Shown here: positions 24,471 to 58,398 of the stretch, piece by piece
Numbering within the stretch: the first letter of the stretch is position 1
Layout of the letters: every line of letters starts with the position of its first letter
DNA from: Pezicula radicicola
Lineage: Eukaryota; Ascomycota; Leotiomycetes; Helotiales; Dermateaceae
Assembly (NCBI GenBank): GCA_003008705.1
Contig: PDUO01000003.1
Span: 752,793 to 816,792, forward strand
DNA: 64,000 nucleotides
Direction: 5' to 3'
Notes under the pieces: model-generated
The model's database searches: none
What the model saw: the letters and a program-made list of their open reading frames with translations, nothing else
What the model was told of the DNA's origin: nothing
Program-made: the position numbers and the translations under genes

Positions 24471-24939
24471 GGTAATTCGAACTTTTATAAGTAGTCACGT
24501 GGCAGGAACGCATATACAGAAATAAAGTACAATATTTAAAGAAAAGACAAAAAATAATTTGGCTAAGCATTGTTCGTCATTCCCACGCATGCAAGTCAAG
24601 GTATCTCAAAATGATTCCTCGTCGCTTAACGCCGCCCTCAAGATACCTTTACCCCACTTTAGCTTCTATAGAAGCTAATACCACGACCATGACCATGCAT
24701 ACTTCAGTATGCTTGTCCCCGCACATAAGCCAATGAAGCACGCAATATTTGTCAAGGATAGCACAATATCGTCGATGTCTTATTCCCATCGGCTCCCCGG
24801 CAACTCCATCAGTGGGAGGTGTGAGGAGACATCGTCTTGAGTGTCTCTCTAGTGAGACTACATATTAACTTGGAGATTATTACCTGTTCGTCCCTACTTT
24901 TGCTAATCACTGATCAGTTCTAAGCAGATCTCCGTCAAA
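24471..24939. other. Intergenic upstream of P450
   Basis: Promoter region for the P450 at 24940. No gene or repeat recognised apart from the end of the array. Confidence 0.45.
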
Positions 24940-26932
24940 ATGGCAAGCCTTTTGATTCCTATGTATGTAGTTAAGTTACTGCTTTTATCAACTGCTTTGG
25001 TCTTGCTAGGAGTAGTAGGGTATTTCATTGTAAATGAATGGACAAGATACAAAGCAAGACTGAAGGGACTCAAAGGACCACGGGGTTTTCCAGTCATCGG
25101 GAATCTTCATCAAGTACATATTCCCAAAGCATTCCAAAAGAAGGAAAAACTGACACCGGATTCATCTTAGATCCACAAGCTGCCAGCAGCAGAAAAATAT
25201 AGACAATGGGCTGCTGAATACGGCGATGTTTTTCAGATCCAACTTGGAAACGTACCTATTGTAGTCATCAATTCAGCAGCAGCGGCAAAGGCGTTGTTGC
25301 TTACTCAGACTTCTGCTCTGAACTCAAGACCTATCTTTCATGTTTTCCACAAGGTATTTATCTCAATATCCTGACCAAATAAATAGTACTAAGTGTTAAC
25401 ACAACTTAGATAGTCAGTAAGAGCGTACTTTCGATAGGAACTTCGCCGTGGGATGACAGCTGTAAGAGAAGGCGAAAGGCGGCTGCAACCGCGTTGAACC
25501 GCGCTAAAACTGACGATTATGTCCCTGTAAGTTATTATCATTATCAAAAGTCTTGTGTGGGTCCTACTTACATTTCTTTATAGATTATCAAACTGGAAAC
25601 CACCGAATTCATTCGAGATCTATGGAGGGTAGGTCAAGCCGGAAGACTCGCAATAGATCCAACTCCAATAACTCATCGGCTATCTCTAAACCTAAGCCTG
25701 ACTCTAAACTACGGTTTCAGGTGGGTTCCCAAAACCCCCAATATATATCAACTATAACTAAGAAGACAAAAGAGCCGAGTCTGCGAAAGCATTGCAAACG
25801 TCACCACTCCTCCTAGAAATAATGCACATTGAAACAGAAATCGGAAAGCTGCGAAGTACCGGAAATAACTATAGTAACTACATTCCAGCGCTCAGGGTTT
25901 GGAGTTGGCTTCGTGAACTCTTTGGAACTGGTCCCGGTCCTGCTTATGCTAAAGAGATTGGAAGGAGACGACTTGCGTAAGTTTGGGAAATTTTTTAGAA
26001 TGAATTGAGGGCCCTCTAACTTTCATGTGATTTCAGATACAATAAGGTCTTGCTTGACGACCTCAAGCGAAGAGTGGTGAATAATACGGATAAGCCCTGT
26101 ATTCAGGGTTCGGTGTTGACTGACCCAGATGCGACCAATTTAACAGAAGAGGAATTGCTGAGTATCAGCTTGAGTATGATGGCAGTAGGTTTATTCTCTA
26201 GCCTTTCTCCTCTCTGATCACCAACTTAATTTCAGTCACTAACCTTTGCAAAAACAGGGCGCTGAGACAACCACTCCGACGATAGGTTGGGGAATATTAC
26301 TTCTTTCTCAAAGACCAGATCTGCAAAAGAAGGCATTAGACGCTATTCACGAAGCCGGTATTCTTGATTCGGATCCGTTTAGCTCTTCCGAAGAAGTACC
26401 ATATGTGATGGCTTTCACAAAAGAAGTGCTTCGTTACTATACACCCTTGAGACTGGCCTTGCCAAAAGCCACTTCTGGTGAAGCGATATGGAATGGTCAT
26501 ATCATTCCTAAAAACACCATGGTGTGAGTAATATCTTCTCCAACTCCTACCCCAAGAAACTCCGACTCACAATCAAATCGCAGCTTCCTAAATTCATGGG
26601 GCTGCAACCGAGATCCGAATGTCTTTGAGAACGCCTTCGATTTCTATCCTGAGCGATGGTTAGAACACGAAACTTCTACTAGGTCCCATTATGCTTTTGG
26701 ATACGGAGGCAGGATGTGCGTTGCATCTCATGTTGCAAACAAGGCTGTTTATATGGCGTTTCTACACCTTATTCTAACATATGAGATCCTTCCGGGAGAA
26801 GCAGAGAAGATTGAAATAGATCCGATCGAAGGAATTCTTGATGTAAGGCATACGAGGGCTGCGCCGAAGCATAACAAAGTTAGATTTGTGCCAAGGAACG
26901 AACAGTCACTTAACGACTACCTTAAGAAGTAG
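24940..26932 (+). CDS. CYP504-like cytochrome P450
   Basis: Exons 24940-25113, 25171-25353, 25410-25526, 25584-25720, 25773-25976, 26037-26184, 26258-26523 and 26584-26932 give 525 aa with consistent phases. An ER signal anchor (VVKLLLLSTALVLLGVVGYFIV) is followed by GPRGFPVIGNLHQ, YGDVFQIQLGNVP, LNLSLTLNYGFR, an I-helix with GAETTTPT, KEVLRYYTPLRL (ExxR) and the heme loop HYAFGYGGRMCVASHVA. The heme loop and N-terminus match phenylacetate 2-hydroxylase-type P450s, so an aromatic acid is a likely substrate class (inference). It is a paralogue of the frameshifted gene at 15445 and has two extra introns where that gene has fused exons. Confidence 0.87.
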
Positions 26933-36864: not shown

Positions 36865-38486
36865 ATGGCCTCCCCAAGGAGCCCAAATGTTCGTTCAAGC
36901 ATCGACGAGAAGTTTGCGGGGCCAGAAGAATCCATCGACCTTGAAGCTATGATCCGACCAGATCATGGCATTACACCTACAACTACTACCTTCAACACTC
37001 ATTCGTGCTTATTACTCAGACGATTAGAGGAGTCGCCAATAATACAGAAATTTCTTTGCTATCCCTCGCCGGGTTCCCTGAAAATAAAGTCAACATCATG
37101 GTTAGACGGAGTTCGAGGAGTAGCCGCTCTTGCGGTTTATATCTTCCATGCGATGGGTTGTTGGGCATCCACTGTCGCGGCGTGGCATTCAGACGAAAAC
37201 CAAAACAGTTTCCTTCAACTGCCCCTCATACGAACAATTTTTGTCTCTGGAGGAACGGCGGTATCACTTTTCTTCGCTATCTCCGGCTATGTACTCACAC
37301 ACAAGTCCCTTCGTTGGATGAGAAGCGGCTCCAAGCATCTAGTATACCCGGCTGTCACATCCTCTATGTTCCGTCGCGGCTTTAGATTATATCTCCCACC
37401 GATCCTCCTGACTTTCTGCGAAATGGTAGCAACACGCTTTGGCTACCTACCACCCTTAAATTTCTCCTTCGTTCCTGAAGCCAGCTTTTCAGCTCAGTTT
37501 GTGGATTGGTTCACAGAGATTAATCATCTTGTGAATCCATTCTATAACTCTGTGCGTTCACTACAGGGATTTGTTACTCATCCCAAATATGATGCCGTGG
37601 TGTGGACTATCCCGCTAGAATTCTATGGCTCGTTTGTGTGTTACGCCTTGTTGTTTATGCTGGCACGAGTTCCGAGCAATAAAGTGAGAATGGGATTGGT
37701 TGCTGTATTTGCTGCGTTTTGTATGGCCATGGGCAGTTGGAACATCTTTTGCTTTTCGGCTGGCATGTTGATCGCGGATTTTAACCTAAGTCAAGATGAG
37801 GAGAACACTATTTCGTTATCCACACCATCGAGGCATGGAAAGATATGGACTGCTATATTCGCGATAGCGTTTTATGTTGCAGGTTTTCCAACTCTTGTAG
37901 TTGAGGAAGCAAAACTCAAGCCTATGGTAAGTCACAAGTGTTGAGAGCAAAACTACCCTTTCCAGGCTTAATTACTCACCCATCCTACTCCAAGTTTGAG
38001 TAACTCCCAAAGCATCTAAAAAAAGTAAGCTAACTTAGAACCATCGACTTAAAGCCTGGGTTTGAGACCCTCCGATCACTCATCCCAATGACCCTAAACA
38101 TGGAAGACCACTCCCGCTTCCTCTGGTCTCTTTCTGGAGTCTCATTACTCCTCTCGATCTCGCAACTACCCCGACTCAAAACCCTCTTCGAGACCAATTT
38201 CTGCCAATACCTGGGCAAGATTTCTTTCTCACTTTACTTAGTACACGAATTCTGCCTCGTGCTCTTCGGATTGAGTTTCCAGGGAGTCATAATGCGATTC
38301 GCTGGTGTGGAACAGCGGGCTAATACTCTTTTATATTGGCTGGTTTGTGGGATTTGGTACTTCATTTTTACGGTGTTGGTTTTTGCTATTGCGGCGCAGG
38401 TTGAGAAGTGGGTTGATGTTCCTAGTGTTAAGTTTGCTAGGTGGTTAGAGGGGAAGTGTTTGAAGAGTTATAGAAGTCTTCATTAA
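36865..38486 (+). CDS. Acyltransferase-3 family membrane protein
   Basis: Exons 36865-37926 and 38055-38486 give 497 aa. Multi-span O-acyltransferase of the acyltransferase-3 (PF01757) family. After a cytosolic N-terminus come STSWLDGVRGVAALAVYIFHA (family start motif with catalytic-type His), VSLFFAISGYVLTHK, FRRGFRLYLPPI, VVWTIPLEFYGSF, and in exon 2 CQYLGKISFSLYLVHE. Such proteins acetylate or acylate sugars, peptides or metabolites at membranes. The intron (128 nt) contains 18-bp-repeat units at about 37965-38012. It is the nearest left neighbour of the RiPP-type genes and could be a tailoring enzyme, but that is only an inference from position. Confidence 0.85.
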
Positions 38487-39088: not shown

Positions 39089-41046
39089 CTACTTTCTCAT
39101 TGTAAGATGAACATTCAAGCTCTTCAGTGATACTGCTGCAACCCACTCAAGGCGAGGCGGCAACGTAGCTTCACCAGTGTACCCTTCTTGTAATGGTAAT
39201 CTAACATGAAAAGTTTTGATGAACTGTGACAGAGAAATATATAGTTCTAGATAAGCAAAGCTAAGATACGTACAATCAGTCAGAGCTGTGTACCCTACAG
39301 ACACCCCAGGAAGACTTACTGTGCGCCAATGCAAGTATTTGGACCCTTCGAAAACGGAATATAGTACTCATCACGCAGATTACTGGACTCATATAACCAG
39401 CGATTTGGACGGTAGGTGTGTGGAGAAGGAAAGGCATCCTTGTCATGGAGATACCAGATTGGTGAACTGCTGAGGATTGTCTACATACTAAAATAAGCAG
39501 GGAGCAACACAAGTAGGATTTCTAAAACACATCGGGAACTTACGCCTTCGGGGATATACTTTCCAGCCAATGTAGCCCCTCCAGGTGGAGCTACCCGCGG
39601 TAACATAGCTGCAGCGGCACCAGTCCATCTAATTCCCTCCTTAACAGCAGCCCTCAGTCTCGGTAGAGCCTCCAAACTCGTCATATCCTCCGGCCACCCA
39701 GCAACAGCAAGGTCCTCATACAATTCGCATTGATACTTCTGGTCATGTGCAAGCCCCCATATTATATGTGCAAGAGTTGCAGATGTTGTGTCTGTACCAG
39801 GTCCTAACATCTCTTTTGCTTCCGAAAGAGCACATTCGGCTGGTAAACCTGAGCGTATCATGGTTTCGATGAAGTATGGATAGGTGTTATATGCTCTTTT
39901 GCCGTACATGATTTCTACGAGTTGAGTACTTGACCACTAAATCGTCATCAGTGGAAGTGCGAAAGTTCAGGAAGGAGAAAATACCTCGTCGAAACTCTCC
40001 ATGATGATGTCTGTTTGCTTCCTCCACCCTGTTAGGTCGTACAATTTGGTTTTGAAGGAAATCCAGAGAGAGATTAAACACGGCAAATTAGAGTGCTATA
40101 CAAAATCATCAGCAAAGAATCTCTTTGACAACTTCTAATAACGTTACCAAGGCAATCCATTGTGACAATCGATCATTTTCCGCTACCATGTCAAGGTTTC
40201 TACCCTGTTCCCATTCAGAAATACCTCCAATCTCGGCCCCAAATCCAAAACATGCTACGCAAATCAGTCTCGTCTTTTAAATATAACCCATATCATACAT
40301 ACAAATTATATCAGACTCAAGTGCTCTACAAGCAGGTACCAAATCAACAGCAAAACCACGATTCTTAACAGCGTTTAAAAACCTCGTGGTTTGCTGTAAC
40401 ATCATTCCCTCCAACAGAGGCATTTTACTCCTATTGAAAATCTGTCCCATAAGTCGACGTCGTTGAGCATGTTCTACAGCGTTCCTAATCAAAGCATATT
40501 AGTATACAAGCCGAAAAAGATTTTTTAGGTCACGAACGTAATAGAAAATAAACCAGGGTGCGAATCTTGAACAAATTGTCCGTAGACTCTTGGATCCTTG
40601 TCCCATTTACTTCCGGGTGCATTAATGGTTTTGTAGATGTCTAGTGAATAATATGAAAGCTCATTTGGTCCTATCCTTATGAGTGGTCCTGTTTAGTTAG
40701 TACGAGCATAATTACTTGTTAATGGCTTTTGTTCTCTTTATGAGTAGCTATGATAGGGATATTTACCCAATTGTTCATGAAGTTTCGGCAATACTATTGT
40801 TATTTTACCTCGGTGTTCTTGAATGAACGCCCAGATTAGACGTGATATTGGTGCTAATACTCCAGCATTAGGTATCTGAGATAGCGGAGTTAGGAAGTAG
40901 ATGGTTGTAAACTGCAGAGAAAACAATTTTGTTAATATAATGATAACATAATGTTGTTACGTGGGGGTTACACATACTTGCCATAAGACAGCAATTGCAA
41001 AACCTGTCACCGAGAGGACCAAGACTACGAATTGTGCATCGGCCAT
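39089..41046 (-). CDS. Cytochrome P450, RiPP-locus
   Basis: Exons 41046-40978, 40911-40767, 40688-40538, 40484-40303, 40254-40148, 40095-39985, 39936-39544, 39480-39320 and 39260-39089 give 496 aa. A short N-terminal anchor (VLVLSVTGFAIAVLWQ) is followed by PLIRIGPNELSYYS, the I-helix EMLGPGTDTTSATLAHIIWG, KEGIRW (ExxR), a PERF-like YRPNRWL and the heme loop FSKGPNTCIGAH. All key P450 residues are present. It is not close to the two CYP504-like genes. The intron at 40485-40537 starts GTTCGT, a rare donor, but the frame requires it. It lies 2.2 kb from the first UstYa-family gene and heads away from it. I infer a tailoring role on the peptide. Confidence 0.87.
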
Positions 41047-43220
41047 TGCTAGACCTCTGACGTTGTTCTTTAGGACGAGAATAAAAAGAACGCAAATTTA
41101 GGAATAGCAGTAAATATCACTATTGAATGATTAGACTGCTGATGACTGTTTATAGTTTTTTCTTCAAAGTATTGCTGCGGGGATGCCCGCTGTCTCCACC
41201 ATGGAGCCTATCTATATGACTGCTGCTGCAAGCCTCCCCGCCTTAAATGACATCTTAAAACTTACGCTAGGTCTTAGCCAAGCCATAGAGACTGCAATAC
41301 TCCGATTTTCACTGTCTAAATGCATCACCAACAATTTCTGTTTCTAGCATTTAGAGTTGGCTACCCCTAACTAACCCTTCATTACCAAAATCTTCTATAT
41401 CCAAGTTTAGACAAAACCCCATCCCTATTCGAGTTCCCGGGGCCTCAGAGAAAATTTTCAAGTATTGTCATACAATTAGTCCAGAGACGCCATTATATGG
41501 GGCGCTGATGTGATTTTCGCTTAGCCTAATACGTGATCAAATGGGGGAATGGCTAAGCGATATAATAAAGTCGAAGATTATCTATCTTTTATACCAAGTG
41601 ATATATCTAATAAAAATAAGGCGTTGGATTGGGAGGTTACGCTAATATACACGCTACAACGACGTGGAAAGAGATGTTGAATATAATGGCATCATGTGAC
41701 TTAATGCCAAGTCCCTTTCGGAATTAGAAAGCACAATTAAACCACAAACGTAACCTAATCAAAAAAAATTTGTCATATATACTATGAGCTTACAGTAACA
41801 ATGAAGAAAGGAAAACGCCAGGCATCACCGGGGCTCTAGCACGTGTCATCGCTTAACATGAGGTGTGTTCCGACGGTTTGACCAATTTAATTAATTAATC
41901 AATTCTATTAGTCGAATTAACTAATTTGACGACAATACGCGAAATTGCTAGGAATTGACTAAACCTACGTTGGATTGCTCAAATCGTTATATTAACGAAA
42001 TCGATAAAGATATTTTCCACCCATTTAACTAATTCAATTCAGCTTAATTATCTTTATTAGTATTTTTGATAGGTAGGTTAGGCCTAAAAAAGCTACGATC
42101 TATACCCGACCTATGAACTAATACTATCTAAATTGGTTTCTGGACCGAAATCTCAAAAGCAACTAAGTGGTAAAATAATTAGTAGATTAAGGATATACGT
42201 AAAAACACGGGATTTAAAGTGCTAAAGGCAAGTAGTAAAATAATAGGTAAAAATAAGGGCATACTTTCGTATACAAAAACACAGGAAGCAATTCGGAGGC
42301 TTTATTCCCGACTAGATATCGTCTTCTAGCTCGGAAAACTAATTAAGAATAAGAAGATCAATAAGACGATCGATAAGATAATTAATTAATCTAAGAGTCA
42401 AGTCAATTAGTGATAAGAGATCAATCAATTCAATAAATTAATAATAAAGCTACCGAATTAGTAAATCGTTGCCATTTCGCGTATTAATATCGAATTGACG
42501 AATTCGGTAGTCGAATATTGGTCAATTAGAGAGTTTGTAAAACCGTCGGAACAGGTCCCTCTTTTTAGACCCATCATATTAACAGCTGCTTTTTCAGAAT
42601 GCTAACTACACGTTTCAAGAATTTGTTAAGATATCTCCTACCTCTAGTTTATAATTTACATACTAAATTGCAAATCCCTTATTTAGCACAAATCTCTCAC
42701 TTAGTTTTACTACTTAAAAGGAAAATATCAATGTTTTACGGGGACCTAAAGAAATAGAGAAACTCATGTTATCTCAGAGTGGATACTGATGGCAGAACTA
42801 CTATAAATCTAGCCCTTGTTGTACCGGCAGATACATACATATTATTAACATATAATTAGTGGGCTTCGATCACATGATCTTGCACCGGATTGAAATGAGA
42901 CAGTGAAGGGATTTGACTGGAACCGGTGCCAAATGCGATATGCAACAAAATCTTGTCCAATAAGATAACTCACGTGCTATGCCAATGAATTCATGATTCC
43001 CTTGCTGAACATATTCAGCTCAAGCCAGTTCTGAATTTCAGCTTTGAGCGATCAACTAATTCTAGTTAAGACATTTCGTAGAACCCTCCTTCTACAGAGG
43101 AATAAAACTCCATTTTCGAGACTCCATCGTCCGACGCCACTTCCAATCAAGCTTCATACCTGAGCTCGTCTACACGACCGTCTCCTTAGCCAGCAAATTT
43201 CCAAAGAACCCATGCTCTAC
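41047..43220. other. Intergenic with a DNA-transposon relic
   Basis: No gene. It contains the 688-bp inverted-repeat element at 41866-42553 and one reverse copy of the TTTTGTTGCATATC word at 42937-42950. A short hairpin with TTCGCTTAGCC arms lies at about 41516-41565. Confidence 0.5.
41866..42553. mobile_element. 688-bp element with TGTTCCGACGGTTT inverted ends
   Basis: Left end TGTTCCGACGGTTT and right end its reverse complement. About 65 bp inward both sides also share AATACGCGAAAT in opposite orientation, giving roughly 80-bp imperfect terminal repeats. The interior is rich in AATTAATTAATC-type words and has no coding frame. This is a nonautonomous DNA transposon (MITE-like) or a decayed copy. 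No exact target duplication found. Confidence 0.65.
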
Positions 43221-44048
43221 TCATTTAGCCCAATTCAACCTAACACAAGTATAAAAACTAAAAACAACATCACTACTACTATTCATCCACTCAATACCAT
43301 GATCTTCCAAAACCTCCGAGCAATGGTCCGCATGCTCTACATTTAGTGTCTTAGTATCTAACCACTCCAACCTCCTCTCAACCGCCAGAGCCAATTTCCT
43401 CCACAAGAATAAACAATGTTGTCCGTGATATTGATGTGTATAGATATGCTTGTGTTTTGCTGCCCAGATATGGGCTTCGGGTATTATGGTATCGTTGGTG
43501 TAGTTATGTGAACTGTACCATGTTCGATCTGAGAAGGGTGTGTATTGTGAACTTAGGTCGGCTATGTAGCATGGTGCTGGCATCCAGCCGTATACCTATT
43601 TTGGAAGATTGGAGTTAGTTTACTTGTTCTCAAAATTCCAGGAATAAATTAGACCGTTAGACGTGATTTAGCTGTAGAGAATAAAATTGTCTAGTAAGTG
43701 AGTTCCACTTCCATTTTTTTTACTTACCATTGGTTCTATCACGCAGCCTCTGGCTATGGCTTCTTCGTTTGTTGAACCGCAGGTTAGAGTGTCGATTTCT
43801 GACGAGATCTGAGTCGTTGAATTATGGTGGAAGGGTCGCCACCAGAGGAGAAAGGTTCCAGCCGCAACAGTAGTTATGAGGGAGAGGAATATTAAACTTA
43901 GTTCCAATTGAGGTGATGTGATAATGCGTTTATGTTGTGTTGTTGTTTTGGAGGTTTCTTCAACATCGTCAACGAGCTGGTAATCGGCTGTTTTTGAGCC
44001 AAAGATGGTTGCTGTTCTTGCCCAGAGAGATTCACTTTTGGCCGCCAT
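43221..44048 (-). CDS. UstYa-family (DUF3328) oxidase A
   Basis: Exons 44048-43728 and 43595-43221 give 231 aa. UstYa-family proteins oxidise and cyclise ribosomal peptides in the fungal secretory pathway. Seen here: a cytosolic N-terminus, one membrane span at about 48-70, the family segment CGSTNEEAIARGC, W-x-P-A-P-C (about 111-116), and both HxxHC motifs, HGQHC (164-168) and HADHC (195-199). The frame has an in-frame extension above the ATG but no other ATG. The gene is transcribed leftward from the region shared with the precursor gene, consistent with co-regulation (inference). The HxxHC pairs make the family call firm. Confidence 0.88.
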
Positions 44049-44883
44049 CCTCTTCCTCCTTTGACAGTTTTTTACTCTGTCTGCCGAAATGATATGCCAC
44101 AAAATTATACACCATAAATGCCAAAACTCGCACCAAAATGTGGTGTTTTATGCTCCGGCAACAAAGTTAGTGCTCCTAGGAATGGGTAAAAACAAGCTCT
44201 TCAGAGCCCGGTATTTTTCTTCCGTCTGTTTGTCTCCACTTCTGCTACTTGGTGGATCATTTTAATGTTCAAAGACCCAGTGGACGGCTTCAAGGATCCA
44301 GGGCGTTGAACACAGCAGAACTGCTGCAGCCTTCAGAACCGATGCCTCCCTGATTAGGAAGCTCACACGAAGTGAAATGTCTTGGCTACATACAATACCA
44401 AAGTTCAACTTGATTTGCTTATAGGATGACGCGGATGTAAGCTTTGATGTGATGCTAGTGCGGCTGTGAGGCGTAGCTGCATTGAGCGGCACAGGTCGAA
44501 CTTGGATACAAGTTCAGTCGCTTAATTTTCTACACATCTTTCGTAGACGGTCATATATCGGCTAACCTACTAACAGTAAATAGTAATCCGATACATCATT
44601 GACCTGCCCTTTTCCCACTAGCTTATTGAGTGGACTGTCATATTTAGCGGAAAATAAAGGCGATTCTCAATTGCCAAGACATTAAACATCATTTACCTCC
44701 CTTAGTCGTGATGCCATCTGACCAATCTATAGAAACACAAACGCGCAAAACGGCTCCGTGCATGCCAAGCCATCTTCTATATCGTCCTATGGGTGTGTTG
44801 AGCTTATAGCATGTCACTTTCCTATTTTGTTCTAGGGATCTTATACTTGAGCGAGTTCTGACTGGCGTACAGGAAAGCCGTTG

Positions 44884-44915
<32 letters not shown>

Positions 44916-45063
44916 ATATGAATGCCAATACAACCCATTGGTATTCGATATCACTAGTCACAAATCAAAGAGTCTCCCTCAAGTCTTCCAAAGTTATTAC
45001 TCCCACTTCCCTCCACCAACTCGATATCTCTCCTAGCATCAAGAACTACAGCCACTATCGAAA
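44049..45063. promoter_or_regulatory. Divergent intergenic region, UstYa A / precursor
   Basis: About 1 kb between two divergent genes. It holds ten tandem TAC triplets (44884-44913), and right after them a CCAAT (44925-44929) and an inverted ATTGG (44937-44941) about 130 bp before the precursor ATG. A CT-rich, then CA-rich leader precedes ATG 45064. The small open frames inside have no support. Confidence 0.4.
44884..44913 (+). repeat. (TAC)10 microsatellite
   Basis: Ten perfect TAC triplets about 150 bp upstream of the precursor gene start. Confidence 0.9.
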
Positions 45064-45375
45064 ATGAAGTTCACACTCACCTTCGTGGCCGCCAGTCTCC
45101 TGACAACCATCATTGCAGCCCCAGTAACAAATGGTTCGATCCCACCTCTTGGAATTTTTTCACAAAACAACTAATATAAAACTATAGCAAATATAGCCAT
45201 CCGGCAGCGCGAGGCTCAACCTGAGAAGGCTGACGATTATGCTGAGTACACTGTGGAAGGAAAGCGTGAGGCTGAACCAGAGAAGGCTTATGATTATGCT
45301 GAGTACAGTGTGGAAGGCAAGCGTGAGGCTCAACCAGAAAAGGCTCTTGATCTTGACTACGCAGTTGGTCTATAG
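45064..45375 (+). CDS. Dikaritin-type RiPP precursor peptide
   Basis: Exons 45064-45133 and 45188-45375 (intron 54 nt) give 85 aa. Residues 1-19 form a signal peptide (MKFTLTFVAASLLTTIIAA). After RQR at 29-31 come three tandem repeats: 32-50, 51-69 and a shorter last one, 70-85. Each starts EA(Q/E)PEKA. The first two hold Tyr-rich cores (YAEYTVEG and YAEYSVEG) and end in Lys-Arg; the last ends YAVGL and stop. KR followed by EA/xP dipeptides is the pattern of Kex2 cleavage plus dipeptidyl-aminopeptidase trimming. A signal peptide, repeated Tyr cores and KR sites between two UstYa-family genes define the dikaritin class. The intron donor is GTTCGA. A second acceptor 9 nt downstream would also keep frame. 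The product is unknown. Confidence 0.85.
45211..45375 (+). repeat. Three in-frame 57-bp coding repeats
   Basis: Units 45211-45267, 45268-45324 and 45325-45375 (last truncated by the stop codon) encode the precursor repeats. The DNA is nearly identical outside the core codons. Substitutions fall at core position Thr/Ser, in the linker (Gln/Glu) and in the last core. Confidence 0.9.
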
Positions 45376-46274
45376 CTATTTGAGTTCTAGACGTTAAGAT
45401 ACCTCGGAGTTGATAAAAATCAACGAACGGTATTTGTTGAAGTGAGATATTGATGGATCTAAGATGGGCTGGTAGAGATTTTTGAGATGTTCAAGGACTT
45501 TTTGCAGGGCTTAGTAGATTATGTGGAGTGTAGTTTAAAATGGCAATTGGCAAAGGTTGGATTCTAACAATAACCTCAATTATCACTACTTTGGATGTTA
45601 CTTTTTGTTTCGTGACCTCCAACTGTGCTCTGGATTGTATCTAGAACCTCGGGAAATTGATGGGGCATTTTAAGCAGATGTTACTTTTTGGGTAACAACG
45701 TTTCTGTCGCTTGGTAACGGGTCCGTCACGATACGAGGAGAGGATCGGAGTGTATGACGTCTTACAATGCTTATCATTCGTACTAGATCAAGGCTGCATA
45801 AGGTGCAGAATCATGTATCTCAGGTGACATGATCTACAAGATTAAGCCTGTTGGAGAAGGAGAGTTAAGATAATGTACAATTTTTCATCCCCTCCTTCAG
45901 CTGCTCCGGCGCTCCATCGAAAGGCTCGATCTCCAAAGACCGAGCATTAGGTCTTCCGATAGGTAAATTCGTACGATAATTCCATTAGGAAGGTGTGTTT
46001 GTATGAGGCAAGTAACAGTAAAAAGCGTTCTGTCAGCGCCGCAATGGTGCATATGCATGAGTGGACGTTGCCTTGTCAGATACCAATACGGCAATTGGGC
46101 TCTACTCCCCAAAATCTATACGAGGGCGGATTGATACACAGTGATCGCGACAATTGAAATTGATTTTGCATCTTACAGTCGCCTTTGGTGGTTACCTTCT
46201 GACACCCAATTTTGTGTGTGCTTCTATTCTTTCCTTTCCAACAGCTACTTTCATGTGAGTTTTGTCCTCCTATC
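45376..46274. other. Intergenic, precursor 3' region and UstYa B promoter
   Basis: No gene supported. Motifless short open frames only. Confidence 0.5.
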
Positions 46275-47379
46275 ATGGACTCTCAATCTGAAGCGACAAT
46301 ACCGTTCTTATCTAGCAATGAGCAAGATTATACAGACAAGGAAGTAGCTTCTGAAGATGATGTTTTCACATCGAAACGGCATGAACGTCGTTACCGTTGG
46401 GGGCCACTTCTATGTTCCATCTGTCTCATCATAATCACCAATATAGCGACATTTTCAATAACGAATTGGAATTGGAAAAGAAACATTGATGGTATCTGCT
46501 CTTTGTATACATCACAAAGCTGGAGTATGTATTCTGTCTGTCGTTTACACAGAAAATTTTGTATCCTTTTACTTAATACAATAATACAGCACCCGTCTTC
46601 GATGAAGTCGATCTGAAATATACAACAACAACTTTCAATGGAACTTTTTTCAAAGAGACAATTTATCGACAGGATCCTAGCCCGGAAGTAGATGATGCGT
46701 GGAGAGCACTTGGAACAGAATGTACGAGCCTTCATCTCAACTCTTCCCTAGATGAAAAGGCTAATATGATCATATAGATACGGCTATACTTGTTCCCCCA
46801 GAAAATGCAGAAAGAGCAAATATTGCTCTTGATCGCTTGAAGCTTGGTGAGGAATATGGAGGACCAGGGTATCCCGCTATTTTTGAAGTTATGCATCAAT
46901 TGCATTGTTTAGTATGTAAACCGCAGTTCATCAAGAGCATATCTGATTAGAATCTTCTTTATATATAGAATCTCCTTCGGAAAAGTAACCACTTATACTA
47001 CGACTACTATTCAAAGTTGGGCCAAGGTCCCTTCAGCAACCCCGACCAGTTAAAACCGCACATAGGTAAATTATCCTCCCTCACTCCCTCCCTTTCCAAT
47101 CCAAAAGTCAACACCTGAAACTAATCAACTAACCATAAATCCGCTATAGGACATTGCCTAGAAAATATCCGACAACAACTCATGTGTACAGCAGATACAG
47201 GTTTACATCCATTCCTCTGGGCTGGTAATCCTCCACATGTATTTCCTGATTTCAACCGCGAGCATAAATGTAAGAATTTTGAGGCTATTAGAGATTTTGC
47301 GGAGAGGCATCAGGGAGGCTTTGATGAGTTAGATATTACTCCTGGGGTTGGGGAATTGGTTTTAAATGAGGTACCGTAG
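46275..47379 (+). CDS. UstYa-family (DUF3328) oxidase B
   Basis: Exons 46275-46524, 46590-46721, 46778-46911, 46969-47065 and 47150-47379 give 280 aa. A cytosolic N-terminus of about 42 residues, then one membrane span (43-62), a luminal domain with FFKETIYRQDPSPEVDDAW, and both HxxHC motifs: HQLHC (167-171) and HIGHC followed by LENIRQ (203-213), then MCTADTGLHPF. This is the canonical form of the family, closer to the standard motif than oxidase A. It is transcribed in the same direction as the precursor, 0.9 kb downstream. Two different UstYa-family members in one locus suggest two oxidative steps or a heteromer on the Tyr-containing core (inference from the ustiloxin-type pathway). Confidence 0.92.
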
Positions 47380-48629
47380 GCTTTTTTGATAAATACGTAT
47401 GATTTTCTGTATTTAATGGAATCATGGAAAGTAGTTTCAATTCCTTTTCTATGGGATTCATTTTGCGGCTTCACAGTACCCGATTAGATTTAGTTATAAT
47501 GTGTTAGGCCTTTGCTACTTTAAGGTTGATAAGAACTTGGATAGTAGCTAGCTACTGCAGCAAATTAACTAAATGAATAACTTGAATAACTCAATTTAAG
47601 TGACTAATTCAACCCAATGCCTAAGTAAACCATCCAAAGCAATTAACCTCCCTAAACCCAACCCCACAAATCCTCAATACCAAAGACTAGATACCTATAC
47701 CTAGCCACATGACCAAAATCCCAACTTAAACCCCTAAAACCCAAACCAACTACATACCTAGCCCTCAAAACCACAACTCAAAACCAGCATCCTCTACATA
47801 ATACTCCCAACTCTCTACAAAAAAATCTCGAAAAAAATAATCCAATCTCCCTCATCACGTGTACCAAGAGTTAAAATTTCCAGGTTTATTGAATATTTGT
47901 TGCACATCTTCAGCGGGAAGATGCATCAAAGATATCATCATGTGACTTACTAAGAATTTAAAAGCAAAAATTAAAAATAGGATATCACGAGGCTTTTGTT
48001 GCATATCGTAATGCTCTGATCAATAAGGCCATCCCAAATAGTCTGATCGTTTAACCCTTCTTATTGGCTACCTTACGGCTTGGGGGAGGGAGAAGTTTTG
48101 TTGCATATCGCAATTTTGGGCAGAGGAAAAAGAATGTGAGGTGGTTTTTTTAATATGTAGGTCATGTGATTGTTTCCTTTTTGCTCTACAGTAAGTTGAC
48201 TCATTTTTGCACTGTTGCAAACTAATATCTATTTTTGTTCTGTGGGCTTTATTTGTGTTGTCTTGCTTCCTGTAACTAGTGGATAGTGAGTATAAATTCC
48301 TTATGGTTCTACCTGAATTCCAACATGTGTATACTCGCCAAGCTAGTAGTAAACCTTTCTAGTTAACAGTTCGCTCTAAGAGCTTATAGTTATTTAGAGA
48401 TCAACCGATAGAAGGCATTAAGAATGGTAAGAACGGGTCAACGGAAGTGATGGCTACTATAGTCACAAGAGACATTGATCATATTCCACGGTAATGTGAA
48501 ATTCCTTTTTTTTATATACATTAGTTTCTCCTTAGTACACTTTGATAAACGGATGAATATCAGCTACCTGATAAACCATGTTTCAGAATATCAGCTCTCC
48601 TTCATTTAATCACGGATTGAAGATTGAAT
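47380..48629. other. Intergenic between convergent genes
   Basis: No gene. Degenerate 18-bp-repeat units lie at 47568-47620, and two direct copies of TTTTGTTGCATATCG at 47994-48008 and 48096-48110, each with a TCATGTGA word within about 60 bp. Confidence 0.5.
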
Positions 48630-50848
48630 TTACAAGGAACCCCAGTCACCCATAATATCTCGCCAAAAAGTATCATCGTTTAGCTCGCCAAAGTTATACT
48701 GAATGGCTGGAACTTCTGGGTTTTCAGGGCCTGTGCGATTGAAAGGATGGTCATCGAGTACCGGAATCGGAGATGCAGCAGTTCCACTCTGTGTAGCTTG
48801 AGGAGTCACTAATTTAGATTCGTACCACATCTTCAACCGTTGTACCCGCTGCGCATAGGCATTCCACCTGCACATCGGCTGGTGATAAGGATCCTCAGCA
48901 TCCTTTGCCAGTTGGAATTTGACCAGGAACTGATCGAGGATCTCAGAAAAGTGTACGACACTCCGGACATATATCAAGTCCCAACCTGGATCCTTCAGAG
49001 TTGAGAGTTTTGAAAGAACTAGAATCGCATGCATCGTTTGAACCCACATGACAAAGGGAAAGTTTCGATACTCTACTATTGGGAGTTCGAGGAATGTGGT
49101 GATAAGTTGTTTTGCTGAAAGCATACAAGAATGTAGAATGTCGGTCCGTCCGAGTGCAAAGGAACCATATGTAGCATGCCCGGCGCCTTCGCAAAGTGCA
49201 ATCTCATATAAGTGTATTTCATTACTCTGGATATGTATTTGCAAGGAAGCTAGAAAGTCAACATTAGGTGTTATGCCATATTAATCACATATTGGACGTT
49301 GAGAACATACAACTAGTACGAAGCTCGGCGGGGACGAAGTCAGTGAACATTTTGAGCTCTGCCTGATAAGATTGAACGAACATGCCGATAGGAGGTTTCA
49401 TTTCCCAAGAGCGTTCAGGTAGATCATAGGGAAGGCTCTGGGTGACATTCTCAGCGAAATGTTGCAGTCGGACAAGGTGTACCAAATACAAGTCGCTGCG
49501 ATACTCTGGAGATGCCGCTATCACCTTGTAGCTCTCGTCCACGTGTGAGTTATATCGCATAGCTTCCATCTTTTTGAAAGACGAGGAAATTCTACGAGAT
49601 GTGAGTGGAATGGTAAGAAACGTGGATCATCGGCACGAACACAGATGTTAAGTAGAAGCATCCCAGCAAAGCCCTCCTCTCATCTTTAGTACGAATTCCG
49701 AGAATGTCCGGTGCAGACCGATATGAATTGTCAACAGCGGTTTGCATGTTGGTCTGGCGAGGGGCTTTGTTCAACCCAAGATCAATAAGCAAAGAAATAG
49801 CCATTTGCAATAAGTTTGTAATCTGGTTATTATTTTGTGACTGTTGATGAATGTGGTACCTTCAAGCGGTAAGGTCAGTCACAATATAGATTATGTAGAC
49901 TGTAAACATCTTTACAGGGGGCAACAATCACGCACCATGAAATGTAGACAAGAAGACCTTGCAAGAGGTCAAGACTTTTCACGCCTGCAAAAAACATGTG
50001 ATGACTCAAGTATTTCATAATTGCTAAGGTCATTGATTCTTGTTGGAGAACACTCTGCTGAGACGAGAGTCCAATGACACACATGAATAAGAATGGCTTG
50101 GCTTGTTGAAGCCACATGGCATTTACGCCAGCAGGTATAACAACGAAAGGAAAATAGCCAGTCATGACGGTCTGAAATTTTCCCAGAAGGAGGTCAGCGG
50201 CGTCGTAATTGACTTTAAGATCTGGAGGCGGTGGTTGTCCTAGCTGACTTAGTCGTTCTTGGTTCCGAAGAACGTAAGTTTGATAAGAGGCAATAGGAGG
50301 TGGAGGTGGAAATGTCAACGTTACTGGCCCACGCGGCTCAGCAGATCGTTCGGCTGTTGATGAAAGGCTAGACTGAATTGGAGACTGGGAACCTTCCTCA
50401 AGCTCTTCCGGTTCAAGACTTCCAAGTTGCGGCATTGCTCGACGTTGGGTTGCAAGTATATTGGCGAGGTTGGCTACCTTTGCCTCTAACTCGGCTATAT
50501 GACTGAAATTGGCTCCCAATTAGTATTTCTTACCACTGGTAATGGTAGATTCTTAAAATGGTCATCTTACGCTGGTGGCGGTTTTGGCTTAGGCCCAGGA
50601 CGAGTCCTCCTTTCTCTTGCCATACATGGTCTATTATGTCGAATACACCTACCATCCATCACAATTAGCCTCATTTTCACATTTCTAGGTCGAATTTCGC
50701 TCGCTTACCTGTAACAGCTGCCTCCAGCTGGATCTCGAACACACCTCAATCTCAGATGGGAGCAGTCGGCACATGATTTCTGTATACCGAGAACAGGTCC
50801 CTGTGGGGCCTCATTTTGAGGTCCTCCAGGAGTACTATCTCCGTCCAT
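48630..50848 (-). CDS. Zn2Cys6 transcription factor with fungal_trans-type domain
   Basis: Exons 50848-50709, 50648-50571, 50502-49936, 49859-49641, 49591-49311 and 49249-48630 give 634 aa. The binuclear zinc cluster is complete: C-A-D-C near residue 28, then RLRC, CYRC (across intron 1) and the last Cys of HNRPC. A basic, Pro-rich linker (RRTRPGPKPKPPP) and a coiled-coil dimer helix (AELEAKVANLANILATQRR) follow. The middle-homology region includes MAISLLIDLGLNKAP and RRALLGCFYLTSV. No domain suggests anything other than a regulator. As the only regulator beside the RiPP-type genes it is the natural candidate pathway activator (inference). One intron (49592-49640) begins GTTCGT. Confidence 0.9.
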
Positions 50849-51412: not shown

Positions 51413-52654
51413 TCACAAGCACTGACTGTAATAAGCATTCGAGTATGTGCAAGTGGTCCCAGAAACACAAGTAGTACTTCCTGTGTATCCAATACCGCCA
51501 CACTGTCCCCACTTAGCAACGCTAGTTCCAGTCGATGTAGCAGTTGCCGAAGCACTAGTACTGGTAGCAGAGGCTGTTGCCGTTGCAGAACCGCCGAGGG
51601 CAGCGACAACTGAGTAGTAGGCGGGGTGAAGCGTGTAGTCGTCATACCAAAGACAGGCATCTCCTTGTCCCGAGAAAGTGGATGGAACCCAGGAGTATTT
51701 GTCTGTAAAATCCCATACAGTCACACCAACGCAGCCGGGAATTACAGCAAGGCATGCAGAAACGGTGTTGGCGTAATCGGTACCTTGTTGGACGAGACCA
51801 GCGTCGGTTGGTGGCAAGCTGGAAAAGCGAACGTCGAGTTCAGTGTACGCGACTTCAACGCCGGCATTGATAAATGTTTGGAGGTTGGAAGTCTGAGTAG
51901 AAAGACTAGGTGTCGATCCAACAATGAAATGCCCCTGTAATCCCACACCATCAATTTTGATACCCCTTGCCTTCAACGAAGTAACTAGGTTGAGGGCAGC
52001 AGTTGCTTTGGCGCCCGAGTACTCAATGTTGTAGTCATTGTAGTAAAGCTTTACGTCAGAGTCGTAAAGTGCAGCAGTTTCGAAGGCAATTGGAATGTAT
52101 TCGGGGCCAATGGTATTGTAGAAGACATCGGTCCGATATGTACCATCCTCATTGAAGGCTTCGTTTACCACATCCCAGGCGTAGCATTGCCCTTTATAGT
52201 GGGTGACTTCATTCTGAATGTGGTTCTTAAGGACTGCAATTAGAGTCTCGTTCGTCCATGTTCCGGAGGTAACTGATTGCTCTTAGTTTCTAGTGTTTGA
52301 ATTGTTAGAAGGCAACATCTTACCCCAGCTTGGAAGCTGGTTATACCAGCAGAGATTATGGCACCTCAGTAGCTGCGAGTTGTCGGCAGCGAATGAAGTG
52401 ATGACGTCTCCCTTCGTATAGGAGAAGGTATTCTGAGTTGGCTCAATAGTATCCCATTTTTGGGAATTGCCCGGCGTGATCTGCCCGAATTGGGAAGTGT
52501 TTGAGAGGATCGAAGTGTAGGTAGTATCGGTTAATTCGCTGTTGTCTGTTGCGGAACCAAAATATTTCAATCCTTTTGCAACGGCAAGTTCATTGAGTTG
52601 TGCGAAAGAAAATGGTAGTAGCGCAGCCACTGAGACAAGAGTTGAAATGTACAT
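51413..52654 (-). CDS. Secreted GH10 endo-beta-1,4-xylanase with C-terminal CBM1
   Basis: Exons 52654-52324 and 52272-51413 (intron 51 nt) give 396 aa. The signal peptide is [18 protein letters not shown]. In the GH10 barrel I see [12 protein letters not shown], the acid/base Glu in [10 protein letters not shown] (E148) and the nucleophile in YTELDVR (E256), then [14 protein letters not shown]. An Ala/Thr/Ser linker of about 30 residues leads to a cellulose-binding CBM1 ([11 protein letters not shown]... to the final QCL) with four Cys. It cleaves plant xylan outside the cell. Usually induced by xylose or xylan and carbon-repressed; sites not checked. It fits a plant-degrading lifestyle. Confidence 0.95.
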
Positions 52655-53460
52655 GGCGAAGTTAGAAGTGAAAGAGAGTATAGACCAAGAAGACAAGACT
52701 GCTAGTAGTTGGAATGAGTGGGTGCTGGCTGAGAAACTAAAAGTTCGGACGAAGATGAGAACGTCATAATCTTTATAATGCTTGATACTCCACACCAAGT
52801 CCACCCTGGCTATACGGTAAACATTTGACCGGTAAATTAAAGACGTTTTAGATTAACCATAAATGAATCCGCGTACTTTGAACATCGGACGAACCATCCT
52901 TTCCGCCACGAAGGAGTTGTGTGGACGGAACATTCTTTTTCACATCCACGTTCTCACGACCTTGCAAGAGAGTTTTGGCTGTATTCAATAAACTAAGGAT
53001 TAATATTACCCCAAGCAATAGCATTAACGTCGGAGTAGGATTTGTTTCAATTCGAATGCTGGTTGGCTAACCGAGCTATGTTTTATATTGAGTATCGCTC
53101 CGCTCCGATAGATCTCGTTTATCTGAGCCCCTGAAGATGTGGAGAGGATACCTTGGATTTTGCCGCTTTCAGCCCGTATTTGGTTCCAGCGAACCAGAGT
53201 CGTCCGTTTTGTTGCACGATGTACCGTTGATTCCGGCCCGCACCGCCTGAATGTGGAAGAAGAGAAGTTTACATGGCCATGTGGCAGCCCAAAGATGGAT
53301 AAATGAAGCCTGTGTGACCGTGAAAATCAAGTTGACCTGAAGGTGGTGTGTTCCAGAAATCGAAATGAGGGGTAATTGGTATCCCGTTATGCCGCGGTCG
53401 AGTTTAGTAAAATCAAGCTTTCTTTATTAAAACCACTATTTGAAGTTAGTGGTTGCACCG
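52655..53460. other. Intergenic, xylanase promoter
   Basis: Upstream region of the xylanase and 3' region of the next leftward gene. No further gene recognised. Confidence 0.5.
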
Positions 53461-55340: not shown

Positions 55341-57875
55341 TCAGCGGCCATTTCTCTTCGGAGGTTCAACACCCAACAAATGCTTGACAAAGAAGTCGCG
55401 CTGCCTCCGGATTGTATATTGATTACTAGATCCCACACCATGTTCAGCACCGGGAACGAAAAGAAGATCGTAGTCTTTCTCTGCCTCGTTCAAAGCATTC
55501 ACAACCTGCATTGTCGATGCCGGATCGACATTCGTATCCAACTCACCAACGATCAGCATGAGAGCACCGGTCAACTTGTGAGCATGCACAACGTTGGAAG
55601 AGTCTTCGTAGGATTGGTCGACTGGCCAACCCATCCACTGTTCATTCCACCATATCTTATCCATTCGATTGTCATGGCATCCGCAATCTGCAACGGCAGC
55701 TTTGTAGAAGTCGCCATACCAGAGTAATGCACTCATTGCACTCTGTCCACCCGCCGAACCGCCGTAGATTCCGACTCTACTTAGATCCATCCACGGCCTT
55801 GACTGTGAAGCAGCTTTCATCCATGCAATCCGATCTGGTAGCCCAGCGTCTTTGAGATTCTTAAAGCATATATCATGAAATTCCTTTGTTCGCCAATTCG
55901 TACCCATACCATCGATCTGAACAACCACGAAACCTAACTCGGCGAGCTCATGTTGCTTTACCAATGTCGAAAACTTCTTTGGTACGAAGAAATCATGTGG
56001 TCCCGCATAAATTTGCTCAATAACTGGATACTTCTTACTTGCGTCAAAGTTCGAAGGTCGGATGATAATACCATATATCATCGTTTCACCATCTCTTCCT
56101 GGTGCTGCGAAACGTTCTGCAGCTGTCCATCCTACCTCCAACAGCTTCTCGAGACTACCCTCTTCAAGCACCGTAATTTGGTTTCCAGTCTCCCCATTTC
56201 TCAACACTGTTTGAGGAGCTAGGTCCACTCTAGACCATGTATCAATAAGGTATTTCCGATCAGGGGTCCACTTCCAAGTATGTGTCCCATCACCTTCCGT
56301 CAACACTGTAAGATCCGAACCGTCAAAGTTGACTCTTATAAGATGTGCATAGTACGGGTCTTGGTCCTTCACTATCCCGAACGCTTCTAACCAAATTTGT
56401 CTGTTCTCCTCGTCGACCTTGTCTACGGAGTGCATAACCCATTCACCTTTCGTGATCTGGTTCTTTATGCTTCCTGTTGTCAAGTCAAAAAGATAAAGAT
56501 GGATCCTCCCATCTCGTTCGCTAGCCCAAATTATCTCGTTAGAATCCTTGATTTCATGGGAATATCCCTTCTGCGAGTAATCGACAAATGTGTTGCTAGT
56601 ATCCTCAAGTATAATTCGGGTACGTCCTTGTATATCCATGCCAACGAGGCGAAGGAGCTGATGGCCTCTCTGGTTATACAAGAACCGATACTCTCTGCTA
56701 TCAGTGTTCCATTCCATGTCGGTAATGTCAAATGGATTCTGGAACAGCGAGTCATCAGTTGTCACTTCCTTCTTTTCCGACAAGTCGAACATCTTCGGCC
56801 TATCAATCCGCACTTTGTCTCCAGGCTTCAAATACTGGAATTTTTTCAAGCGGGGTTGAACCTGATCCTTTGGACTTGACTCTACTTGGTATACCATATG
56901 CTCTTGCTCCGGTGTATACTGATAAACCACTGCGAAGCTGCCATCGGGTGATTCATAGATCTTGGCTTCATCAAAAGGATTCTCCTTTGTACCACTTTTG
57001 GAGAGCTGAAATTCTTGATCATCATTATCGCGGACCCAGGCATTGTAGTCTTTCACAAAAACTCTTGCATGTTTCTCCGGCTTCACGCAGTCTTTCTCGG
57101 CAGGCTTTTCAATTGCTTCTGTAGCAGACCTCATTCCGTCCTCGATGACAGCAATTGACTCATTGTCTTGAGCAATGAAACTCGCAATTGATTCATCCGT
57201 TTTTGTATTCGTTACCCGCCAAACATGCCCAATATACGTTGGTCTTCTGTTAGATTTCCCTTCTTCGACCGTCACATAATGCTTCGCATTGTTATCCCAG
57301 TCGATCCAGAAAAGAGAAATAGGTCCTTTTGTTCGGTTAACGAACGTGATGGAGGTACTATTTGATGGAGTTTTGTCTGATGCCTTCTCCTTGCGCAAAG
57401 GTTTCAGTGCTTCCTCATTGATATCTCCTTCATACTCAGTCAAGGTGCCATTGTTACGAAATTGCCATTTCTTCTCTCCTGTACGAAAGTTGACAACCTG
57501 TCCATCAGTACTAGGATCTATCCAATCAAACGGTAGTGCATTTGCATGTGCTTTGATGCCTTCGTCATTCAGCACTTTTGCCAGAACTTCGTGGTCGAAA
57601 GCATGTCGACGGACACCCTGCTCTGCGTCAACGAATATGAAAGCGAATTTTCCAGGCGCCGTAGCTTGTCGATACCAGAAGGTACTGCTGCCAGCTATCC
57701 AATGGGGAGAAACGGTTGTCTCCGTGTAGGCTTGCTTCACCCGCTTTGCAAAATTAGACGACCGCTGATAATTCGCTTCCATCGTTGAAGACATGGTATG
57801 AGCATAAAAGTTTGGAGGAAAACAAAGGTCTCGCAGATGTAGTCGTAGTGTATGTGGCGTTTGGATAAGCTGCAT
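55341..57875 (-). CDS. S9 family dipeptidyl peptidase / prolyl oligopeptidase-like
   Basis: A single exon of 844 aa from ATG 57875; an ATG at 57794 (MSSTMEANYQRSS) would give 817 aa and fits the family start better. The N-terminal half is a DPP IV-type beta-propeller (SPHWIAGSSTFWYRQ, FAFIFVDAEQG, repeated YLFDLTTG-type blades). The C-terminal half is an alpha/beta hydrolase with nucleophile Ser in GIYGGSAGGQSA (about 707), Asp in VGELDTNVDP (about 780) and His in GAEHG (about 812). No signal peptide or anchor is obvious with the later start, so it may be cytosolic. X-Pro/X-Ala dipeptidase activity is usual for the family. The neighbouring RiPP precursor has EA and xP dipeptides after KR, so a trimming role is conceivable but unproven. 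Confidence 0.87.
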   Translation of the reverse strand: MQLIQTPHTLRLHLRDLCFPPNFYAHTMSSTMEANYQRSSNFAKRVKQAYTETTVSPHWIAGSSTFWYRQATAPGKFAFIFVDAEQGVRRHAFDHEVLAKVLNDEGIKAHANALPFDWIDPSTDGQVVNFRTGEKKWQFRNNGTLTEYEGDINEEALKPLRKEKASDKTPSNSTSITFVNRTKGPISLFWIDWDNNAKHYVTVEEGKSNRRPTYIGHVWRVTNTKTDESIASFIAQDNESIAVIEDGMRSATEAIEKPAEKDCVKPEKHARVFVKDYNAWVRDNDDQEFQLSKSGTKENPFDEAKIYESPDGSFAVVYQYTPEQEHMVYQVESSPKDQVQPRLKKFQYLKPGDKVRIDRPKMFDLSEKKEVTTDDSLFQNPFDITDMEWNTDSREYRFLYNQRGHQLLRLVGMDIQGRTRIILEDTSNTFVDYSQKGYSHEIKDSNEIIWASERDGRIHLYLFDLTTGSIKNQITKGEWVMHSVDKVDEENRQIWLEAFGIVKDQDPYYAHLIRVNFDGSDLTVLTEGDGTHTWKWTPDRKYLIDTWSRVDLAPQTVLRNGETGNQITVLEEGSLEKLLEVGWTAAERFAAPGRDGETMIYGIIIRPSNFDASKKYPVIEQIYAGPHDFFVPKKFSTLVKQHELAELGFVVVQIDGMGTNWRTKEFHDICFKNLKDAGLPDRIAWMKAASQSRPWMDLSRVGIYGGSAGGQSAMSALLWYGDFYKAAVADCGCHDNRMDKIWWNEQWMGWPVDQSYEDSSNVVHAHKLTGALMLIVGELDTNVDPASTMQVVNALNEAEKDYDLLFVPGAEHGVGSSNQYTIRRQRDFFVKHLLGVEPPKRNGR

Positions 57876-58398
57876 TAGGGAATTGGCGGGGAAATAGGCT
57901 GCAGGACACCCCCAATAATCCTACGTGGCTCGAATTAGTTCTATCTAAGGTACCTACAGTACGTAAGTACTTTAACGAGAAACGGTAAATCTAGACCGTA
58001 GAATAGCTGCATATATCCTGCTAAAAAGAAAGGAGAGGATAACGATCACGAAATAGGGAAATGGAGAGGCGAAGTAAGAAAGTCGCGATAATGACGCTCA
58101 AGGCAGTATTTCTACCCTGTGTTTATCCCATTTCTATCTCTATTTACGGAGTAGTATATCGTCAATAATGAAGTTCTAACCCCACCCTTTACTAGCGCTA
58201 GAATGCGCCACGGAAGATAAGCCGATGGACGAATAGGGAAGGACGTTCGCAGGAGAAACATATCATTGCGAACTAAGTAATGGTCCTTGGCATACCCATA
58301 ACAGCATAGGGCGTCTGCTTTCTCTTTCTTGTTCTTCTGAAGATCTCTAGTCACTCGCCAAAAGGCTGTCGCAGCGTCGCCTTCGAGACGCTGCAATC
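57876..58398. other. Intergenic between divergent genes
   Basis: Shared upstream region of the peptidase and the amidase. Nothing else seen. Confidence 0.5.

Follow-up and report, generated by a model that had tools for sequence, protein, structure and literature searches.

A probable dikaritin-type peptide locus with pheromone-type spacers and a predicted, Pfam-missed oxidase partner in Pezicula radicicola

What does a short repeat gene encode when it lies between two genes for oxidase-like proteins? This question is raised by a locus within 12 kb in the fungus Pezicula radicicola, at positions 39089-50848 of the window, as we call the whole 64,000 nucleotide stretch analyzed here (bases 752793-816792 of the 2.0 Mb contig C65, in a genome of 61.0 Mb and 152 contigs). 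An earlier note on this DNA had read the locus as a dikaritin-type cluster for a ribosomally synthesized and post-translationally modified peptide (RiPP). We assign a probability of about 0.78 to the reading that this is a dikaritin-type RiPP locus whose precursor would be cut by kexin, trimmed by a Ste13-type peptidase and cross-linked by two predicted copper oxidases. The class itself is known and common, with nine dikaritin clusters in Venturia inaequalis (PMC9632046; general background in PMC9233826; the literature is cited throughout from extracts of the papers), and the surprise is therefore limited; what sets this locus apart is the core, the pheromone-type spacers and a predicted oxidase partner that is invisible to Pfam. 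The gene models were built from the DNA sequence alone, with predicted boundaries and introns, and give from left to right:

39089..41046, minus strand: cytochrome P450, 9 exons, 496 amino acids (PF00067, 140 bits)
43221..44048, minus strand: YB, double-HxxHC protein, 2 exons (43728-44048 and 43221-43595), 231 amino acids
44049..45063: divergent upstream region shared by YB and the precursor gene, 1.0 kb
45064..45375, plus strand: precursor, 2 exons, 82 or 85 amino acids
46275..47379, plus strand: YA, UstYa-family PF11807 protein, 5 exons, 280 amino acids (196 bits, E 9.9e-58)
48630..50848, minus strand: regulator, 6 exons, 634 amino acids, Fungal_trans domain and N-terminal Zn2Cys6-like cysteine cluster

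All five genes are free of internal stops and have ordinary fungal introns, and no further recognizable gene was found between them in 39089-50848. Gene models and Pfam matches thus bore out the earlier description of the genes as present and readable, with the P450 on one side and nothing recognizable as unrelated in between. Two of its assignments held in part. One of the two proposed UstYa-family genes, YA, matches PF11807, whereas the other, YB, does not and is placed by its HxxHC motifs; the proposed Zn2Cys6 regulator has the cysteine cluster and a Fungal_trans match above the cut-off (29.8 bits against 23), but its Zn2Cys6 match stays below it (12.5 bits against 21). The dikaritin-type class is supported, since the repeat precursor with its signal-like start adjoins both the PF11807 gene and the other double-HxxHC gene.

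The precursor gene starts with the ATG at 45064; exon 1 extends to 45133, and exon 2 extends from 45197 (82 amino acids) or 45188 (85 amino acids) to the stop at 45375. The intron donor GTTCGA is unusual, and the related GTTCGT serves as donor in the P450 and regulator models. The protein reads MKFTLTFVAASLLTTIIAAPVTNA-IRQ-REAQPEKADDYAEYTVEGK-REAEPEKAYDYAEYSVEGK-REAQPEKALDLDYAVGL, with the three units REAQPEKADDYAEYTVEGK, REAEPEKAYDYAEYSVEGK and REAQPEKALDLDYAVGL encoded by a DNA repeat of 57-base period (2.5 copies, 89% matches). The repeats and KR sites of the secreted precursor claimed earlier were found, and its N-terminus looks signal-like on hydropathy alone (highest mean over 12 residues 2.23). 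In a scan for repeats between dibasic sites in the window and the oxidase loci, 11 of 5083 frames passed, compared with none of 5083 after shuffling; the 11 frames represent three precursors, re-counted through overlapping loci and shadow frames. None of 341 further frames from additional oxidase loci passed. These scans covered part of the 40 other PF11807/YB groups of the genome, nine with 7.5 kb flanks, three with ~4 kb flanks and ten only as 3-4 kb loci, with 18 outside the coverage. No paralogue of the precursor was found in the same genome.

The earlier note had called for a protein search for relatives. Using the precursor as query we found P0001 (84 amino acids, E 5e-5), and a two-sequence profile (A2) led to P0016 (122 amino acids, E 1.8e-18), which comprises six member sequences on 29 contigs. 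The reading frame of the precursor is settled because both relatives share the KREA frame. P0016 starts with MKFFISAVSATLLVTAICSP and contains four units AYDYGEYSVE[A/G], close to the second unit of the window precursor, and AYDY[A/G]EYSVE[G/A] is common to the two. The three precursors together have 11 units; in P0001 and in P0016 the opening unit stands in a frame that a gene caller drew, probably across introns. Y-[T/S/A]-V occurs in all 11 units and Y-x-I in none; Trp and GQ are likewise found in none of them. The earlier view that the cores match nothing recognized needs refining, since Y-x-V resembles the known Y-x-I. Four strings cut from the precursor units had no match in the open-access literature, a coverage that leaves out supplementary sequence tables of KEX2-processed repeat proteins (KEPs) and most subscription papers; within it, the core is absent from print.

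A feature absent from the earlier reading lies between the cleavage site and the motif E[K/E/V]A. Each unit carries zero, one or two dipeptides there, 17 in total over the 11 units, which are related by descent. The dipeptides seen are EA, QP, EP, DA, VP, AP and TA, and 17 of 17 end in Ala or Pro. Their removal leaves an E[K/E/V]A start in 11 of 11 units, an outcome reached by 0 of 20000 prefix shuffles, a count that is not a probability. In alpha-pheromone precursors, X-A/X-P dipeptides after the kexin site are removed by STE13 (PMC9769878). As far as residues tell, the X-Ala/X-Pro spacers are the Ste13 signature of alpha-pheromones.

The oxidase side of the locus is carried by YA and YB. A hydrophobic stretch spans residues 45-63 of YA and 50-68 of YB, followed by HxxHC motifs at 167 and 203 in YA and at 164 and 195 in YB. 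No Pfam family, PF11807 included, matched YB above the cut-off. Among YB and 14 relatives, PF11807 reached E 1 or less in 0 of 15 sequences, and in a wider YB-type set it reached E 0.1 or less in 4 of 18 (best 5.4e-5). Two HxxHC motifs were present in all 14 close relatives and invariant in both alignment A1 (15 sequences) and alignment A5 (18 sequences: YB, six of the 14 homologues and 11 frames of the same genome), the latter of which also has invariant C90, G91, A97, C102 and C116. When A5 was aligned by hhalign with six UstYa sequences (A4), both HxxHC motifs fell in register over 47 columns with E 3.2e-4. The AlphaFold model of a YB relative, P0002 (mean pLDDT, the model confidence score, 83), has a helix at 40-73 and the motifs on helices 156-172 and 185-196, and that of the exon-2 domain of the window YB (mean pLDDT 89) also places the motifs on two helices. 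NCBIfam had no convincing match for any of the 18 YB-type proteins, and a sequence search of the PDB with YA gave no convincing relative (best E 0.64).

The same layout, one membrane helix and then HxxHC(x)nHxxHC on two helices as in the P0002 model, is known from CctR, the DUF3328 protein of cyclochlorotine biosynthesis. CctR is a copper enzyme with a binuclear centre and a membrane anchor, and it needs HxxHC(x)nHxxHC for activity (PMC12435403); it differs in that it hydroxylates a non-ribosomal peptide, and YB in that it has no PF11807 match. Two HxxHC motifs have been recommended over homology for naming this family (PMC12871659). The pair of invariant HxxHC motifs and the profile alignment mark YB as a divergent, Pfam-missed double-HxxHC type. 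YA and YB are predicted copper oxidases, YB having the HxxHC(x)nHxxHC-after-one-membrane-helix layout.

The association of the two oxidase types recurs in the genome, which contains 62 PF11807 places (exons, not genes) and 25 YB-type places. For the linkage count we set apart the two YB places of the window and dropped five of the 25 with E over 0.04; the count is conservative, as four of the dropped places are close to PF11807 places and the fifth is an exon of a gene already counted. Of the 18 YB-type genes left, 11 had a PF11807 place at 10 kb or less, where uniform placement would give 0.22 (P 3e-17), and by locus the figure was 8 of 14 (P 2e-12). At ~289.9-299.9 kb of contig C86, four YB-type frames, one PF11807 gene and one precursor occur together. 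This precursor and the third one are:

Contig C86, ~295.2-295.8 kb (L016:316-843, with L025, L019 and L052): second precursor, six KR-separated units around STAAYPVIEEDIVE
Contig C1, ~2.242 Mb (L036:4158-5288): third precursor, many KREAHHTASQIAAKKAG units, EA after KR

The third precursor adjoins two PF11807 places, and its repeated unit lacks Tyr. The di-histidine of this unit is reminiscent of KEP types G-3 and G-8 (PMC7329392), which is a resemblance only. YB-type genes also occur at C71:346421-351076 and C83:321254, on contigs devoid of a PF11807 place, and members of the YB family may also work on their own or serve different pathways.

These components suggest the following pathway. From its sequence signals, the precursor would enter the secretory pathway and the Golgi, where kexin would cut after KR and Kex1 would strip the basic tail after the kexin cut. 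A Ste13-type dipeptidyl peptidase would then trim the peptides to the E-K-A starts EKADDYAEYTVEG, EKAYDYAEYSVEG and EKALDLDYAVGL; both dipeptides of EAEPEKAYDYAEYSVEG would be removed by such DPP-IV (dipeptidyl peptidase IV)-type trimming, which would halt at EK. YA and YB would be Golgi membrane proteins whose domains face the lumen and would cross-link Tyr to Val, presumably by an ether between the Tyr phenol and the Val beta carbon, as the bond in ustiloxin and phomopsin joins Tyr and Ile. The beta carbon is tertiary in Val as it is in Ile, which makes Tyr-O-Val the most obvious candidate bond. Further cross-link sites are perhaps offered by the remaining Tyr residues of EKAYDYAEYSVEG, the P450 may oxidize the product further, and the linked regulator would control the locus. 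The complete scheme, a bridge from mating-pheromone processing to cross-linked RiPPs in which pheromone-style kexin and Ste13 trimming would yield peptides of 12-13 residues for Tyr-Val cross-linking by UstYa and YB, the latter from a sister family that partners UstYa throughout the genome, with a DPP-IV-type gene of the window (55344-57920) possibly dedicated to this task, is tentative, and we regard it as rather doubtful as a whole.

Comparison with characterized systems helps to place the locus. The ustiloxin B (ust, Aspergillus flavus) and phomopsin (phom) loci likewise have a secreted KR-repeat precursor adjoining UstYa-family genes; the P450 is shared with ust and the zinc-finger regulator with phom. 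In these systems, too, the core Tyr stands two residues before a beta-branched residue, but the core is Y-x-I there and Y-x-V here: ustiloxin has YAIG and YVIG, phomopsin has YVIP, and the cross-link joins Tyr and Ile (PMC7329392). None of the features by which the ustiloxin/phomopsin subtype is tested, namely a Y-x-I-x core and PF00264 and PF03572 in the locus, was found here. Ste13-type spacers are present here, whereas STE13 is not predicted to process the ustiloxin and phomopsin precursors in the extract of PMC6339444. KEP type G-10, which includes POI2 of Neurospora and the ustiloxin precursors, likewise has KR-bounded units with a conserved Tyr, and DUF3328 genes lie near 41 of its 45 KEPs (PMC7329392); its Y and I are conserved bar three exceptions in 441 units (PMC7329392), whereas Y-x-I is found in 0 of the 11 units here.

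Tyrosinase PF00264 has 54 places in the genome and none on contig C65, and S41 peptidase PF03572 has six and likewise none on this contig. Some other UstYa loci of the same genome (C17, C91, C115 and C137) do have a tyrosinase place at ~10 kb or less, so the absence is a property of this locus. With neither gene on the contig, the pathway is small, like that of asperipin-2a, in keeping with the earlier proposal of a pathway devoid of an S41 peptidase and smaller than that of ustiloxin, or split. The asperipin-2a locus (apr) also lacks both, and a UstYa-type cross-linker has been proposed for it (PMC6514808). It has four genes including one UstYa homologue, a reductase and a transporter, and the core FYYTGY, whereas two double-HxxHC genes and a P450 are found here. 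Alpha-pheromone precursors, processed by KEX2 and STE13, share the X-Ala/X-Pro directly after the cleavage site and predicted peptides of 12-13 residues. They differ in that the locus here has no pheromone core, which is WxW in the yeast type (PMC7329392), and in that oxidase genes adjoin.

A number of observations weigh against the dikaritin-type reading. The window precursor has only three units, the third of which is diverged; its first unit is preceded by QR instead of KR, and Glu stands before Gly in two of the three. Val occupies the expected cross-link site, and no tyrosinase lies on the contig, though ustiloxin and phomopsin need one. P0001 and P0016 were the only two of 435 candidates to pass and come from metagenome sources without context, so that UstYa linkage was not seen elsewhere. 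The hhalign probability between YB-type and UstYa sequences was only 38.6%, and two YB-family models found no fold match among solved structures. The C86 precursor has SQ after KR, not X-Ala/X-Pro, and the Ste13 feature is therefore not general to YB-UstYa loci. Co-regulation is unsupported as well: the upstream regions of the P450, of YB and the precursor, and of YA shared 2, 0, 0 and 0 words of 8, 9, 10 and 11 bases, against means of 3.2, 0.47, 0.07 and 0 in random window stretches. As these counts are not above the control, co-regulation via a common promoter word was rejected. CGG-N2-CCG was seen in the region shared by YB and the precursor and in that before YA, once in each, which is too few to use.

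Could the precursor instead yield a linear alpha-pheromone-like or other signalling KEP, cut and Ste13-trimmed and not cross-linked, with the adjoining oxidases serving another substrate? We consider this unlikely. The alpha-pheromone core of filamentous fungi is W-C-x3-G-Q-x-C. Searching for it gave 0 strict and five scattered wide matches, and since the alpha-pheromone of this genome was not located elsewhere, the pheromone explanation is weakened only by the core and the neighbours: the units lack Trp and GQ, and both their Tyr and the location of the gene between YB and YA agree with a RiPP. The Ste13 signature does mark alpha-pheromone precursors (PMC9769878), and a full-length DPP-IV-type gene is present elsewhere in the genome (C68, 389 bits, 934-amino-acid frame). 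According to the extract of PMC7329392, a DUF3328 gene lies near none of 227 yeast-type alpha-factors and near 3 of 216 filamentous pheromones, but near 17 of the 76 KEPs with homology to putative Basidiomycota pheromones; one Rutstroemia pheromone homologue has a DUF3328 gene at two genes' distance (PMC7329392). On these Basidiomycota and Rutstroemia cases, the combination of a pheromone-type KEP with DUF3328 is not without precedent.

That YA, YB and the P450 form a small-molecule cluster in which the repeat gene is incidental would agree with the occurrence of DUF3328 enzymes in polyketide and non-ribosomal pathways, outside RiPPs (PMC12048977), and with the genome having 62 PF11807 places while the scanned loci yielded only three KR precursors. 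We judge this very improbable, as 36-58 kb holds no synthase-size frame, the largest being the 859-amino-acid S9 peptidase, the precursor gene is separated by 1.0 kb from YB and by 0.9 kb from the start of YA downstream, and the C86 locus repeats the set of a precursor, YB-type genes and a UstYa gene. Hardly credible is a decayed or never-translated remnant. Its case is that there are three units only, one of them truncated and diverged, that two frames are open over the repeat, and that units 1 and 2 differ by three silent and three residue-changing codons, no sign of strong constraint. The signal-like start is intact, however, third codon positions hold four of the seven base differences between units 1 and 2, and unit sequence and frame are kept in P0001 and in P0016 with its six member sequences and 29 contigs.

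A candidate for the trimming step lies to the right of the regulator, beyond a GH10 xylanase with a C-terminal CBM1 (51416-52852, minus strand), which adjoins the regulator, and a Ser/Thr-rich membrane protein:

55344..57920, minus strand: S9/DPP-IV-type dipeptidyl peptidase, 859-amino-acid frame, ~10 kb from the precursor gene

A genome search for PF00930 gave two places, the C68 gene and window 56217-57101 (117 bits), and the window peptidase has a DPPIV_N and a VHL-like match (28.6 bits). In the PDB its nearest entries, which we take to be bacterial, bear the name dipeptidyl aminopeptidase IV. It is striking to find a peptidase of the X-Pro/X-Ala type so close to a precursor that apparently requires such an enzyme. 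Upstream, the three frames read showed neither a signal nor a membrane exon, and the protein looks cytosolic. With the regulator, the xylanase and the Ser/Thr-rich membrane protein intervening, its membership of the locus is not claimed as certain, and it is a lead only as the trimming partner of the precursor.

On the other side, an acyltransferase gene left of the P450 is a possible outer member of the locus:

36865..38486, plus strand: acyltransferase PF01757 (66 bits for 36865-37926)

Of 292 candidate matches of the P450 in the same genome, 86 were scored and none was a close paralogue; those other matches were 28-40% identical over parts of the protein. An Rfam scan of 36.5-52 kb gave no match at gathering scores. 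A CTA trinucleotide run is located at 44880-44915, inside the upstream region shared by YB and the precursor gene. Further left, window 15379-26932 contains two P450-like genes (by eye), a short-chain dehydrogenase, an MFS (major facilitator superfamily) transporter and an M19 membrane dipeptidase, and looks like a separate small metabolic cluster. AFGYGGRMCVASH is common to both P450-like genes, of which two N-terminal frames were scanned and had no Pfam match. The genes at 15-27 kb were rejected as locus members since frames at 28.8-33.6 kb intervene, which we take to be housekeeping-like, the domain search there being for a methyltransferase only. A repeat of 18-base units (6.3 copies, 71% matches) is found at 24339-24452.

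A 2019 review called it unknown which proteases strip the flanking residues from the ustiloxin core (PMC6514808); in the locus described here, the spacers themselves point to a candidate trimming activity, Ste13/DPP-IV. The cyclic KEP peptides have been proposed to evolve from linear, pheromone-like ones (PMC7329392), and pheromone-type trimming signals between oxidase genes make such a linear-to-cyclic origin testable. Detection by antiSMASH is said to rest on a nearby peptidase (PMC12048977). With 18 further genes of the YB family in this genome, searches based on PF11807 or on a peptidase would miss such oxidases and their loci.

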